From the NCBI RefSeq assembly GCF_021533195.1, contig NZ_JAJNKB010000014.1, positions 1 through 63,729 on the forward strand: 63,729 bases of DNA, in the 5' to 3' direction. This DNA comes from Portibacter marinus (GTDB lineage Bacteria; Bacteroidota; Bacteroidia; Chitinophagales; Saprospiraceae). Position 1 is the first letter of the stretch. Each line of letters starts with the position of its first letter. Below are positions 961-63,729 of the stretch, piece after piece. Position numbers and translations under genes: made by a program. Below the pieces are notes generated by a model that searched no databases, was not told the origin of the DNA, and saw nothing but the letters and a program-made list of their open reading frames with translations.

Positions 961-2259
961 AATGTAGCTAATGTGACACAACTTATTGACGTAGGAGATA
1001 GTTCTGCACCTAATATTCCTATTTTAGATGATATTACAGCGGAATGCGAATTATCTTCTTTAACTGCACCAGAGGCGCTGGACAATTGTGCAGGTTTAAT
1101 TACTGGAACCACCAACGTATCTCTACCGATTTCAGATCTTGGATTAACAGTGATCAACTGGGAATTTGATGATGGAAATGGAAACACATCTATTGGGACG
1201 CAGAATGTGATCGTTTACGATTTATCACCACCTGAGATGAGCGAAATTATTATACCGTTGGATCCAATCCAATTAGGAACGAGCATAAATGCCTCAAGTT
1301 CTTATACTGACAATTGTGATAAAAATGACCATAGTGGAACATGGTTTTGGGGAGATGCCTCAGGAAGCTCTTCTCCGGCCAACATAGATCAAAATTTGAA
1401 TACGATTACAGGGTCCCACACCTATTCGGAACCAGGCGTTTATATTATTTCTCTTTATCTTACAGATGCCTCTGGAAATAGCAGTGAATTAGCAGCAACC
1501 ACATATGCTGTCATTTATGATCCAAATGGAGGATTTGTAACCGGAGGAGGTTGGATTGAATCCCCTATGGGTGCTTATAGACCCGATGTCAATATTTATG
1601 GTAAGGCTAATTTTGGATTTATATCTAAATTTAAAAAAGGAGCAAATGTTCCAGATGGCAATTCTACCTTTCATTTGAATGCAGCGAATTTTAATTTTAA
1701 AAGTACGGTTTATGACTGGTTGGTGATTGCTGGTGCGAATGCTAAATTCAAAGGAGAAGGTCAAGTCAACGGTGAAGGAAATTATGGTTTCATGATTACT
1801 GGTATTGATTCTGACATAAATGAACCTAGTGAAGCGGATAAATTTAGAATTAAGATATGGGACATGGATAATGGCGATTTTGTCATATACGATAACCAGT
1901 TCGGTGAGGATGATGAATCTTACCAGACCCAGGATATAGGAGGTGGTTCGATAACGGTCCACAAGTCAGCGAAAGGAAGATCAGCTCAATTAGATGATCA
2001 TGCAGCCCGCCCAACCATGACATTATTTCCAAATCCAGCACGAGAAAGGATTACTATCAAAGTCGAAGGAGGTACTCAAAATCAAAAAGTTAAGATCTTG
2101 GATCAGCTCGGTAAAGTAGTATGGATGGGTTACGCAAAAAGCAACAATCAAGATTCAGAAATTACGATAAATACTGGAGATTTTGCAGCAGGTATATATT
2201 TTACAACCATAAATGTGGCTAATTACCAAATTGTAAATAAGTTCGTGATCATAAAGTGA
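1..2259 (+). CDS. Secreted HYR/PKD-repeat protein with T9SS sorting domain (5' end outside window)
   Basis: The reading frame is open from the first base, so this is the C-terminal 752 residues of a longer protein. It begins with four copies of an 80-residue HYR-like module (conserved pieces DNCDGDITVSPTA and RTWTFTDTCGN). A more diverged fifth module follows, then a PKD-like domain (SHTYSEPGVYIISLYLTD) around bases 1260-1515, and a region beginning GGGWIESP that often follows such modules in Bacteroidota surface proteins. The last 80 residues are a type A type IX secretion sorting domain (LFPNPARERITIKV, then GIYFTTI and a final KFVIIK). The protein should cross the outer membrane by T9SS and be released or anchored outside the cell. 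An adhesive or structural role is inferred; no catalytic domain is visible. A terminator follows at once. Confidence 0.9.
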   Translation, partial: NTSSVSQTIIVEDKTAPVAPAAPADLTLDCAADLPPPVNLTASDNCDGDITVSPTAQIIPGSCLNNFTMFRTWTFTDTCGNTSAVSQTIIVEDKTAPVAPAAPADLTLDCAADLPPPVNLTATDNCDGDITVSPTALILPGSCLNDFTMFRTWTFTDTCGNASSVSQKIVVLDDAAPVAPAAPADLILECGNDVPPPVNLTAIDYCDGDITVSPTAQIIPGSCLNDFTMVRTWTFTDTCGNTSSVSQTIIVEDNTAPVPPAAPAGLILDCADEVPPPINLTAIDYCDGEITVSPTVQITAGTSPNAYSELRTWTFVDTCGNVANVTQLIDVGDSSAPNIPILDDITAECELSSLTAPEALDNCAGLITGTTNVSLPISDLGLTVINWEFDDGNGNTSIGTQNVIVYDLSPPEMSEIIIPLDPIQLGTSINASSSYTDNCDKNDHSGTWFWGDASGSSSPANIDQNLNTITGSHTYSEPGVYIISLYLTDASGNSSELAATTYAVIYDPNGGFVTGGGWIESPMGAYRPDVNIYGKANFGFISKFKKGANVPDGNSTFHLNAANFNFKSTVYDWLVIAGANAKFKGEGQVNGEGNYGFMITGIDSDINEPSEADKFRIKIWDMDNGDFVIYDNQFGEDDESYQTQDIGGGSITVHKSAKGRSAQLDDHAARPTMTLFPNPARERITIKVEGGTQNQKVKILDQLGKVVWMGYAKSNNQDSEITINTGDFAAGIYFTTINVANYQIVNKFVIIK

Positions 2260-59690: not shown

Positions 59691-61124
59691 CTAGGAGAAT
59701 AACTCCATGATCGCCTCCCCATGCCCATCCGGGGTGGTATAAAATGGCCTGCCTTCTATCTCATAGTGCGTTTCTGGATCTATCCCTAATGCATGATAGA
59801 TGGTCTGATGAACCTCATCGATGACTACTGTGTTTTCAATAGAGGCACATGGTCGCTCATCAGCAGTTTTCCCAAAAATATTGCCCCCTTTTATGCCTCC
59901 GCCCCACATCAGGATTGAGCTTCCATCCGTGAAATGACGATGCATGCCATAAAACTTTTCATCTTCGATGACGTCGGGCTGATCTACCTGATCCTGAACC
60001 TTTTCACCAGGCCTACCCTCAATGATAGCATCGCGACTAAATTCACTAGCCAGAACGATCAGGGTGCGATCCAGATGACCGGACTCATCCAGGTCTTTGA
60101 TCAATTGAGCGATCGGTCTATCAATCAATTCCTTCATGGTTCTCGCCCTCAGATGTCCATTTTCGTGTGTGTCCCAGCCCAAAAATGGTTCATATTCAGT
60201 AGAGACACTGATAAATCTTCCACCACTTTGAGCCAGTCTTCGGGCAAGTAAACACCCCAATCCAAATCTTCCTGTATCGTATTTTTCAATGACATCTTTA
60301 GACTCCTGTGATAAATCAAAAACCTTGGACTCCGGTGAGTTCAGTAACTTATAAGCTTGCTCCATTGACCTGGACAAGGACTCTTTTTGATAATCACTTC
60401 CTTTTCCCAACACCCTGCTTTGATTTGCTAAATCCTTATACAATTTATACCGTGCTTCAAACCGCTCTAAAGACATTCCCGTAGGCGGTCTGACACTGTC
60501 CAATCCGGTTCTGGGATCAGGAATTAGAAAAGGTCCGTATTCCGATCCTAGAAAGCCAGCAGTATGAAACGCCTTCAATTCCTCGCCTTCCCCGACAGTA
60601 AATCGTTGGCCAATGGAAATAAAGGGCGGAATGACTGGATTTACAGGCCCCAGTTCTTTTGCAATCCAGGCACCAATATGTGGTGCTTGCACCGTTTGCG
60701 GTGGTTCATAACAGGTATGCCAATGATATTGATGCCGGGTGTGAAGGATATGACCTAAGTCTCCGGATTTGTAAGAACGTATAATGGCGCCTTTGTCCAT
60801 CACTCCTGCGATGTTCTCCAACCCTTCAGAAAAGAACAAGTCATCTACTACTGTAGGAATCTTTGGAAAAGTACTCAACACTTTTTTACTCTCGATGCCT
60901 TTAGAATAAGGGACATATGACTTTGGGTCAAATGTTTCAGTGTGGGCCATCCCTCCTGCCATCCATAGTAAAATAACCCTATCGGCAGATGAATTTACCG
61001 ATGCGACTTTATTGCAGGCACTTAAAAAACTTAAGGTCGGTATAGATATCGAAGCAGCAGCAACGCTTGCCGTAGTCATTTTTTTGATAAATTCTCTTCT
61101 GGTCGAGTTGTAAGATTCTTGCAT
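59691..61124 (-). CDS. DUF1501 protein, twin-arginine exported
   Basis: This 477-residue protein starts with a Tat signal (STRREFIKKMTTASVAAAS followed by FLSAC, possibly a lipobox). DUF1501 motifs are ILLWMAGGMAHTETFDPK, GDLGHILHTRHQYHWHT and GWDTHENGHLRARTMKELID, with LIVLASEFSRDA later. The fold is related to alkaline phosphatase and sulfatase enzymes, but the activity is not established. Such genes nearly always sit next to a DUF1549/DUF1553 gene, as here (9 bases upstream on the same strand), so the two products likely work together in the periplasm. Confidence 0.9.
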   Translation of the reverse strand: MQESYNSTRREFIKKMTTASVAAASISIPTLSFLSACNKVASVNSSADRVILLWMAGGMAHTETFDPKSYVPYSKGIESKKVLSTFPKIPTVVDDLFFSEGLENIAGVMDKGAIIRSYKSGDLGHILHTRHQYHWHTCYEPPQTVQAPHIGAWIAKELGPVNPVIPPFISIGQRFTVGEGEELKAFHTAGFLGSEYGPFLIPDPRTGLDSVRPPTGMSLERFEARYKLYKDLANQSRVLGKGSDYQKESLSRSMEQAYKLLNSPESKVFDLSQESKDVIEKYDTGRFGLGCLLARRLAQSGGRFISVSTEYEPFLGWDTHENGHLRARTMKELIDRPIAQLIKDLDESGHLDRTLIVLASEFSRDAIIEGRPGEKVQDQVDQPDVIEDEKFYGMHRHFTDGSSILMWGGGIKGGNIFGKTADERPCASIENTVVIDEVHQTIYHALGIDPETHYEIEGRPFYTTPDGHGEAIMELFS

Positions 61125-61133
61125 AGAATTTGA

Positions 61134-63602
61134 TTAACTGATAAACTGAAATTCCGGGAGGAGTATCAAAGCCCAAAAAAGATCTTGAACCGAAGTATTA
61201 TTGGGAAATGGTCCAAGCATTCTACTGACAATTCGTTTTTCTTTGACAGTAGGCTTTCTGGATAACAATTCCTGATATAGCTGCTCCACCATCAGTTCTG
61301 GATGTTCCTCATAGCGCACAAGCCATTCTTTGGCACCTTCTTCCAGAACCTGACTTAAAAATGCTCCATTGGTCAGTTCCAACGCTTGGAGCAGAGTGGC
61401 TTGCTGATCTCTACTTGTGGTCACGTTTTCTCTGGTAGGGCGCCCAAGTGCTTTGAGGAAAGGGTGTTGTTTGACCAAACTCGCTCTTGCAAAAGTTTGA
61501 TCATTCTCATTAGATGTAAAATCAAGCAATTTATCCCAATGCATTGATCTGTAATTCTCCAGATTGACCCACTGTCTATCGTCATATTCAATATCTTTCC
61601 AGGATGGATTTGGTAAACTATCAAAACTCTTCCACCCTTCACCACCCTGTATGATCTCTTCATTTCCGTCTTCATCCATCATTTTCAAAGCGTACAAAAT
61701 GCCCGCTGGATTGGCCAGTTTACCTTCATTACTGGCTTTGATGGCTATCAAATTTTGGCCTTGTTTTAAAAAGTCTTTTAAATCTAGCTTCTTCACTTCT
61801 CTCCAGTCTTCACCTTCTGCAAGTTTTTGACCATTGACAAAAAACTCAAAGGAATGATCTACTGAAAGCATTAATTCGGCTTTTTGCAAGTCATCTTTAA
61901 TATTCAATTTCCATCTAAAATATCGTTCCCCAGGTTCAGGCAATACCACACGATCAAATTTGAGCTCTTTATGCCAGTATCTATCATTGGATAGCATTTC
62001 TTCACATGGATGATAACCTACGGAGTGAAACATGGGCGCTATCACCTTGCTAATGGCATCTGAAAACTGCTCGGCAGTCAGTCTGCGCATTATAGGACCA
62101 GAAAAAACAAATTGATCGTCGTTTAAATCCGATATATTATCTACTGAAACAGCCTTGGATTGATAGATCCTAGAAGTCATAATGGTTTTAAGTAAATGCT
62201 TAATATCTGTTCCTGACTCGATGAAATCCGAAGCCAACCAGTCTAACAACTCATGATTCCATGGCGTATTGTCCATTTCGTCAACGGGTTCGACCAAGCC
62301 CCTTCCCATTAAATTCTTCCATATTCTATTGACTAAAGTTCGGTAAAGTCGGCCATTATCCGGTTGGACCATTACGTCTTCCAGCAATTCAAGTCGCTCA
62401 TCTATAGTCTCTGCTTGCACAGATCCCAGTTCATTATAAAGAAAACTGACCTTTGACATGACACCAGTTGGTTTATCACACCGATTCAGTTCAAGAGGAG
62501 ACTCTGCAAAAATAGAAGCAAATTCGTATGCTTGTTTCAATGTAATGTTGCTGACAAAGCTGTTATGACAGGAAGCACATTTTACATTCACACCCATCAA
62601 AGATTGTCCAATATTCTGAGCAGCTTGCATCTCAGTTCTTTGGCTTGCATTCACCACTCCTCGCCATTGAATCCCTTTGATAAAACCCTCCGAGGCTTTG
62701 TTAGGATTTACCAACTCCTTTGTCATTTCATTGTAAGACTTATTCGACAATAAAGAAGCGTAAAGCCAATCTGTAATTTGTTTTCTTCCACCCGTAATAA
62801 AACCTGGTCCGCTATAGTCGTTTCGGAGTAAATCATTCCAGAAAGTGAGCCAATGTTCTGTATAATTTGTCACATCCGTTAGGAGATAGTTGATCAGCTC
62901 TTCTCTTTTATCGGGATCCTCATTTTTAATAAACCAGTTGACCAGTTCAGTGTCCGGAAGCAATCCGGTGATGTCCAGGTGTGCCCTTCGTACAAAGTCC
63001 TTGTCCTCTAATTTAACAGGCCATTCGATACGGTTTTCTAAGAAATATTCATTGACGATGATGTCTACTGGATGGAGGTATATGCTTGTTTGATCGATTA
63101 TAGGTTTGGAGAGTGCCAATGGTGCCTCCTTGAAACTCCCCGTTGTTTTATCTGACCAATAAGCTCCTTGATTGATCCATAAATCTATCAAGTCAATTTC
63201 AGACTTTTGTAAAGTCTTGCCTTTTTTGGGCATGACTTCATCATGATTAGAAGGTAGATTAATCCTTCTCGACATTTCACTTTCTTCGGCTGATCCTGGT
63301 ACGATGACCACCCCATTCTCACCTCCTTGAAATAATCCTCTTTTACTGTCTAAAGCAAGTCCTCCCTTCTTTTTGAATTCGCTATGACATTGATAACAAT
63401 TGTGTGCTATGATGGCTCTCACCTCAAGATTCAAATCTTCTTTTTGACTTGTAGATAAGGTATCTACATCAGACAAGGCTGAAACCATATCCTTTACCGC
63501 TCCTAAATCATAGTCTTGTTCTTTGTTATTCAATCCTCCAAAAAGATATCCTTCACCATGAGTCAAGCTACCGCCATAATGACCTGTTAGAAAAACTAAA
63601 AT
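61134..63602 (-). CDS. DUF1549/DUF1553 protein with cytochrome-like domain: exon 2 of an intron-split gene
   Basis: This is the 3' part of the gene, 822 codons long. It starts with the end of a membrane segment (ILVFLTGHYGGSLTHGEGY, coding from 63602) that belongs to the usual DUF2231-like N-terminal membrane domain. A PSCyt1 domain with haem site CYQCH follows, then DUF1549 with a second CASCH, and DUF1553 in the last 250 residues. A TTG at 63566 would give a shorter protein but cuts the family's conserved GHYGGSLTHG, so it is not taken as the start. The upstream exon lies beyond the window on the far side of a group II intron. A redox or sulfatase-linked role with the DUF1501 partner is inferred. 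Confidence 0.88.
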   Translation of the reverse strand: MLVFLTGHYGGSLTHGEGYLFGGLNNKEQDYDLGAVKDMVSALSDVDTLSTSQKEDLNLEVRAIIAHNCYQCHSEFKKKGGLALDSKRGLFQGGENGVVIVPGSAEESEMSRRINLPSNHDEVMPKKGKTLQKSEIDLIDLWINQGAYWSDKTTGSFKEAPLALSKPIIDQTSIYLHPVDIIVNEYFLENRIEWPVKLEDKDFVRRAHLDITGLLPDTELVNWFIKNEDPDKREELINYLLTDVTNYTEHWLTFWNDLLRNDYSGPGFITGGRKQITDWLYASLLSNKSYNEMTKELVNPNKASEGFIKGIQWRGVVNASQRTEMQAAQNIGQSLMGVNVKCASCHNSFVSNITLKQAYEFASIFAESPLELNRCDKPTGVMSKVSFLYNELGSVQAETIDERLELLEDVMVQPDNGRLYRTLVNRIWKNLMGRGLVEPVDEMDNTPWNHELLDWLASDFIESGTDIKHLLKTIMTSRIYQSKAVSVDNISDLNDDQFVFSGPIMRRLTAEQFSDAISKVIAPMFHSVGYHPCEEMLSNDRYWHKELKFDRVVLPEPGERYFRWKLNIKDDLQKAELMLSVDHSFEFFVNGQKLAEGEDWREVKKLDLKDFLKQGQNLIAIKASNEGKLANPAGILYALKMMDEDGNEEIIQGGEGWKSFDSLPNPSWKDIEYDDRQWVNLENYRSMHWDKLLDFTSNENDQTFARASLVKQHPFLKALGRPTRENVTTSRDQQATLLQALELTNGAFLSQVLEEGAKEWLVRYEEHPELMVEQLYQELLSRKPTVKEKRIVSRMLGPFPNNTSVQDLFWALILLPEFQFIS

Positions 63603-63729
63603 ATCGAGTAGGTAAAGGGGACTCTCACCCCTAAACCTCTCACAGAACCGTACGTGAACCTCTCAGCTCATACGGCTCTTCATGCTCATTCTTTCGAATC
63701 GAATACGCCACTAAACTCATTCCTTCCAA
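63603..63729 (-). mobile_element. 3' end of a group II intron inserted in the DUF1553 gene
   Basis: Read on the minus strand, the sequence contains a 34-nt domain V (63645-63678) beginning GAGCCGTATGAGC and ending CGTACGGTTC. A domain VI hairpin follows (GGGGTGAGAGTCCCC), and the intron ends in CCTACTCGAT at 63603. Domain V is the most conserved part of group II ribozymes. The coding frame of the DUF1553 gene resumes at the next base. The intron-encoded protein and domains I-IV lie outside the window. Confidence 0.9.
63645..63678 (-). ncRNA. Group II intron domain V
   Basis: This 34-nt hairpin has GAGCCGTA pairing with TACGGTTC, the AGC catalytic triad at its 5' side, a two-base bulge on the 3' side and a GAGA-type tetraloop region. 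It is the catalytic core of the intron RNA. Confidence 0.9.

Follow-up and report, generated by a model that had tools for sequence, protein, structure and literature searches.

A group II intron that appears to split a DUF1549/DUF1553 gene in Portibacter marinus and whose sister copies lie beside attC-like sites

The window analysed here, 63,729 nucleotides of Portibacter marinus, is the whole of one contig (C5) of a 65-contig, 5.19-Mb genome. It breaks off inside a group II intron, of which it holds the 3' part, since this intron is repeated in the genome, and on the minus strand the intron is followed by a long open frame and a DUF1501 gene. The features of the locus are:

63603..63729, minus strand: 127 nt from the 3' side of an ORF-less-type group II intron, with the contig ending inside it; the last 121 nt are identical to the complete 815-nt copy on contig C4
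63645..63678, minus strand: domain V, 34 nt, with the catalytic triad AGC (from sequence, Rfam and fold; triad read by eye)
63605..63642, minus strand: domain VI, a hairpin in which the A at 63609 is unpaired and is the presumed branch point (from the fold; the 3' end fits A-XXX-RAY)
61134..63602, minus strand: exon 2, the C-terminal 822 aa (PSCyt1 cytochrome, DUF1549, DUF1553), read in phase 0 from ATT
59691..61124, minus strand: DUF1501 gene, 477 aa (Pfam), directly downstream of the split gene, with a counterpart in a genome of the same genus (G002)

Both domain V and domain VI are present in the window copy. An Rfam search matches RF00029 at 63603-63680 on the minus strand (65.3 bits, gathering threshold 40, E 1.4e-10), and the domain V-VI region folds at -37.5 kcal/mol, against an average of -20.3 over 200 shuffled sequences (z -5.6). 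The unpaired A at 63609 is the seventh base counted from the intron 3' end, and the terminus ACTCGAT (63609-63603) ends in RAY, in keeping with the A-XXX-RAY motif as given in an excerpt of PMC7923331. The final intron base is 63603; the codon ATT starts at 63602 on the minus strand, and from there the frame is open to 61134 and matches the Pfam domains PSCyt1, PSCyt2 (DUF1549) and PSD1 (DUF1553) above cut-off. These results bear out an earlier note made from the sequence alone, which had described a 34-nt domain V, a domain VI hairpin and an intron 3' end on the minus strand, and a frame that begins with ATT at 63602 and runs into a DUF1553 protein.

The same note had proposed that the intron splits the gene in phase 0, with an N-terminal membrane exon and a GUGYG intron start further upstream, and both of these were found at the end of another contig. 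Contig C1 carries an intact open frame of 120 codons that encodes a DUF2231 membrane domain; the 127 nt of intron after it, which start GTGTGCCC (5' end GTGTG), reach to the contig end, so that C1 and C5 each hold 127 nt of the intron of the split gene. Both termini are of the group II type, GTGTG on C1 and the RAY end on C5, and are linked to each other through the homology of the exons. The codon before the intron is GTC and the codon after it is ATT, which places the intron in phase 0. The joined exons code for 942 aa with a DUF2231 membrane domain, PSCyt1, DUF1549 and DUF1553, and at the predicted spliced junction ...GCAACAGTC is continued by ATTTTAGTT... In an unspliced message, the frame of exon 1 would stop after 15 intron codons.

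Comparison with intron-free homologues, which the note had also suggested, supports the split. In G002 the gene is uninterrupted (941 aa), and the DUF1501-like ORF after it equals the 477-aa gene of the window in length and is of like sequence; the identities of the two exons to G002 are 55.8% and 65.1%. Alignment with the orthologues of G002 and G037 shows no gap at the junction or within 20 columns of it. In G057, G025 and G016 the orthologous frame likewise continues across the junction, and indels lie a few columns upstream of it, giving five aligned orthologues in all; a sixth, in G047 (984-aa open frame), was left out of the alignment. The other genome of the same genus, G001, has distant matches only (37% at best). 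The ORFs upstream of the gene differ between the source genome and G002, and gene order therefore supports the downstream side only. The order C1-intron-C5 is probably continuous in the genome, a link drawn from homology, since the contigs break off within the repeat; we take both contigs (166 kb and 64 kb) to be chromosomal.

Whole-genome searches identified nine 3' ends of the intron family, one more distant copy on contig C7, and nine 5' ends starting GTGTGCCC. Two copies are complete: one on C4 (815 nt, no ORF), which matches both RF01999 and RF00029, and one on C23 (about 2.05 kb) with a 420-aa RT/maturase. The remaining ends, seven 5' and seven 3', are cut off by contig ends after 121 to 154 nt; only C17 shows more, with 427 nt of the 3' side of its copy. 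The first 122 nt of the C1 copy are identical to those of the copies on C28, C17 and C26 and of the copy C23b. Eight of the nine 3' ends have the ORF-less type of tail, with no more than 2 differences, and C23 differs upstream of domain V. Domain IV is visible enough to prove the absence of an ORF in C4 and C17 only; judging from their tails, the other copies of this type, including that of the window, are likely to have an ORF-less interior as well.

The genome has a single RVT_1 match, on C23. The protein is a group II RT/maturase (TIGR04416, 403 bits; PF00078 and PF08388 above cut-off), for which profile searches reported no endonuclease domain; its best PDB match by phmmer is the GsI-IIC RT (170.8 bits), a match that is not diagnostic of class. 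The expectation of the earlier note that the intron in the gene would contain an RT is probably not borne out: this copy has an ORF-less tail, and the C23 copy carries the only RT gene found. That copy (L026, about 1190-1200, minus strand) ends in CTCGTCT instead of CTCGAT and so lacks the canonical 3' AY, with the RT intact; because of this end, we infer that it may serve chiefly to supply protein and less as a mobile element. The distant copy at C7:10175-10763 (L028 7176-7764) is a divergent group II intron with a 3' end that is 88% alike and a 5' end that was not placed; the distance between its domain I and domain V matches is too small for an RT ORF, and the opposite strand has a weak attC match (31.5 bits) at L028 7032-7101.

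Eight of the nine intron 5' ends are preceded by an attC-like site, the window copy being the exception. A GTT box (GTC in C23a) starts 13 nt before the intron in seven of these sites and 14 nt before it in C17. Six of the sites, when aligned, show the marks of integron attC sites: R and L boxes, a spacer of four bases on one side only, and bulges of a single base on the 3' arm. The attC model R1 was built from these six sites, with 14 of 24 pairs changed on both sides in at least one sequence, and 150 of 269 genome candidates were scored. It has 60 matches in the genome, 56 of them at E<=0.001, on 23 of 65 contigs, six being the training sites. The array is thus large, integron-like and broken over mostly small contigs. 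An R1 match abuts seven of the eight attC-side introns; six of these trained the model and the one on C53 is independent, and C23b has a longer attC-like repeat that R1 misses.

The surroundings of the gene insertion are of another kind. No R1 match at E<=1 was found in the window or in 12 kb of C1, and a search of 700 bases at the intron end of C1 with filters off gave nothing above 5.8 bits. For the 100 bases that precede the insertion the folding energy is -3.5 kcal/mol, compared with -5.5 to -19.2 at the eight other sites. In all eight cassette copies the first ORF after the intron, counting ORFs that run into it, is a cassette ORF of at least 101 aa and antisense to the intron; in C21 and C23 a shorter sense ORF (63 and 85 aa) overlaps the antisense one. 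A long sense ORF after the intron is present in the window copy only.

Two further observations concern the array itself. A gene for a 586-aa tyrosine recombinase with a long N-terminal extension (C4:80575-82335; L027 5576-7336) lies about 2.3 kb away from the attC and intron with which contig C4 ends. No IntI-type integrase above cut-off was found, this protein scoring 119.5 and 110.6 bits against TIGR02249 (cut-off 265) in two pieces that leave model positions 184-237 unmatched; it may be an unusual integron integrase. The first 127 bases of L027 (minus strand), just before the attC, are repeated at several points of the array, with similar stretches on C4, C8, C10, C28, C19 and C20; contigs C19, C20 and C28 start with this stretch.

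Like most attC flanks, the site in the gene carries a GTT at -13, a G at -3 and a T at -2. Across the nine 5' flanks, G stands at -3 in all nine, T at -2 in eight, and GTT or GTC at -13/-14. With a weight matrix derived from all 8 attC flanks, the gene site is among the best 1.3% of window positions on both strands, and among the best 0.6% when C17 is omitted (7 sites); 49 or 23 sense positions of the gene, respectively, score as high as the insertion site or higher. When each attC flank was left out in turn, it ranked in the top 0 to 0.13%, except for C17 (14%), in which the spacing is one base longer than in the others. The gene site is therefore a weak match, far weaker than the attC flanks are to each other, and is suggestive without being proof. 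The intron contains GACTG, which is complementary to CAGTC, the five exon bases that precede it at the gene site, and an AAC, present in 10 of 11 aligned introns, could pair with the GTT box. An assignment of EBS1/EBS2 was considered and dropped: there is no clean covariation with the flanks among the 11 aligned introns, and by our own estimate a 5-mer match in 815 nt is near chance, so neither element is claimed.

The association with attC extends to relatives of the C23 RT in other genomes. Among 100 genomes searched, source included, the closest outside matches are in G054 (68%), G096 (56%) and G002 (51%). A scan of named genomes retained the best 80 of 544 RT loci, and 88 loci were compared, namely 78 of the best 80 and ten others, our own C23 included. 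A motif rule placed the intron start in 67 of the 88 loci and left 21 without one; its consensus was derived from the close group, so that the starts in the other 57 placed loci are less sure. Outside the source genome, R1 searched in 92 loci matched three G002 sites, one of which (48.1 bits) directly precedes the RT-bearing intron of that genome, and gave one weak Flavivirga match (E 0.3). Since the other attC-like repeats are longer than R1, an ad hoc repeat test was used, which was positive in six of ten members of the close group, in two of the 57 others, and at 154 of 8800 random places. The six are our own C23, G002, G096, Flavivirga L140, Saprospiraceae L141 and Desulfobulbaceae L144; by eye, G054 (L124) and Flavivirga L139 also have attC-like repeats, which the test missed. 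Attributed to the nine close relatives of C23, this amounts to attC-like repeats before five by test and two more by eye. At L142 the attC is doubtful by eye, and L143 is cut off with 45 nt upstream only.

In the RT tree, nine of the ten close-group members form one clade (98/74, below the starred limit), and G002 stands further out, with three Bacteroidota introns (L145, L159 and L164) branching between. L145 has only a loose candidate for the intron start, without attC, and L159 and L164 have no placed start. The tree does not show the attC-associated loci to be a single clade. The tree was built without L192, L196 and L208 (frame <330 aa) and without L176 and L201 (start too near the contig end). 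As a separate observation, in Neobacillus L150 and L152 the RT-bearing intron starts directly after an apparent domain V, which we take from its appearance to be of class C, in a twintron-like arrangement.

We consider it probable that an ORF-less intron of ~815 nt (length from C4) interrupts a single gene in phase 0, and that it belongs to a family targeting attC sites, escaped into the gene and is spliced with the help of a maturase acting in trans. By analogy with known ORF-less introns, the single RT/maturase from the C23 copy would bind the ORF-less intron RNA and splice it, and the resulting RNP would reverse-splice the intron into folded attC strands. In a one-off event, the RNP would have reverse-spliced into the sense strand of the gene, with GTT at the same spacing and no attC hairpin. 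The pre-mRNA would then be spliced with the maturase in trans and the protein restored. The gene probably works only if the intron is spliced out of its message. The wider proposition is one on which we are evenly divided: that a non-class-C lineage, found in several Bacteroidota and a Desulfobulbaceae MAG, evolved homing to attC with a GTT box at fixed spacing, and that its maturase-driven ORF-less form multiplied in the array and escaped into a gene, the expression of which became dependent on the maturase encoded in the array.

There are three rival readings of the locus. That exon 2 is a complete gene with its own start, the intron merely lying upstream, is scarcely credible: a TTG at 63566 does open an 810-aa ORF, but the orthologues extend upstream through the junction into DUF2231, this domain is present and in phase at the other end of the intron, and without it the cytochrome domain would have no membrane segment. 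The two halves could also have ceased to be adjacent. With nine near-identical copies and contigs that end in the repeat, seven loose 5' and seven loose 3' ends mean that recombination between copies could have parted exon 1 (C1) from exon 2 (C5); a split intron could in principle still splice in trans. However, no other loose end carries either half of the gene among the matches listed, and the other 3' flanks carry antisense cassette ORFs, which makes a separation very unlikely.

A more serious alternative, in our view unlikely all the same, is that the gene was disrupted by a recent insertion, is spliced insufficiently and is a pseudogene in the making. The near-identical ends of the copies suggest recent spread, so that the intact exons prove little, and a recent insertion alone may explain them; the early stop in the unspliced message would fit as well. 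According to passages of PMC6003770, housekeeping genes are seldom interrupted by group II introns in bacteria, and the expression of a gene can be lowered by an intron within it, as Ll.LtrB lowers the mRNA of its host gene. Against a loss of function, both exons are fully open with an exact junction, domains V and VI and both intron termini are intact, and a complete RT/maturase is encoded elsewhere in the genome.

The split gene offers a natural test of the passage from a mobile intron to an obligatory gene intron dependent on a maturase in trans. Such a passage has been proposed as a step on the road to spliceosomal introns. Expression of the split gene may also be tied to the integron-like array, which lies in another part of the genome. 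The family, which lacks the class C triad, stands at attC eight times, mostly in ORF-less form, with one copy splitting an otherwise ordinary gene. Our best reading is that this setting, an AGC-type family at attC with a single escape into a gene, is of more interest than the split as such.

The nearest known systems are the group IIC-attC introns (S.ma.I2 and its kin), which resemble the present family in that all eight sister copies lie beside an attC stem on the strand opposite to the cassette ORFs and no endonuclease domain is reported. They differ in domain V, which has AGC (GAGCCG, by eye) here and CGC in IIC, so that the family probably does not belong to the known group IIC-attC lineage, and in the target, with insertion 13-14 nt past the start of a GTT/GTC box here and at TTGT/T (IBS1/IBS3) there (the IIC features according to excerpts of PMC7923331); none of the nine 5' flanks ends in TTGT. 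The window copy departs further, being in sense orientation and away from any attC. Non-class-C group II introns adjoining attC or attC-like sites are described in the same excerpts for halophiles, namely class E and CL1 (IIB) introns (H.ha.F1, H.ha.F2 and UHB.I2), of which two are 5'-truncated copies and one is in cassette orientation, in contrast to eight insertions antisense to cassettes, an intact RT and ORF-less copies here. In the part of a 2015 review that we consulted (PMC4424553), three kinds of target are given for bacterial introns, attC is mentioned for class C only, and ORF-less introns are called rare in bacteria; class E and other varieties are treated in passages of PMC3552965. 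Among the matches listed in the open literature, there was no other report of non-class-C introns targeting attC.

Two further systems bear on the ORF-less copies and on the gene insertion. In Thermosynechococcus elongatus, ORF-less introns are spliced and mobilised in trans by a driver IEP (PMC2882425, in part). There, as here, ORF-less copies outnumber RT-bearing ones, and the trans splicing and mobility demonstrated in that organism would have their counterpart in the present family; the insertions there are at homing-type sites, in other introns or in insertion elements, compared with attC sites, one RT copy and nine copies in total here. The insertion of Ll.LtrB in a relaxase gene is alike in that a group II intron lies within a protein-coding gene, but its host gene is carried by a conjugative plasmid (PMC6003770, in part), whereas the gene described here stands beside a DUF1501 gene in a presumably chromosomal location.
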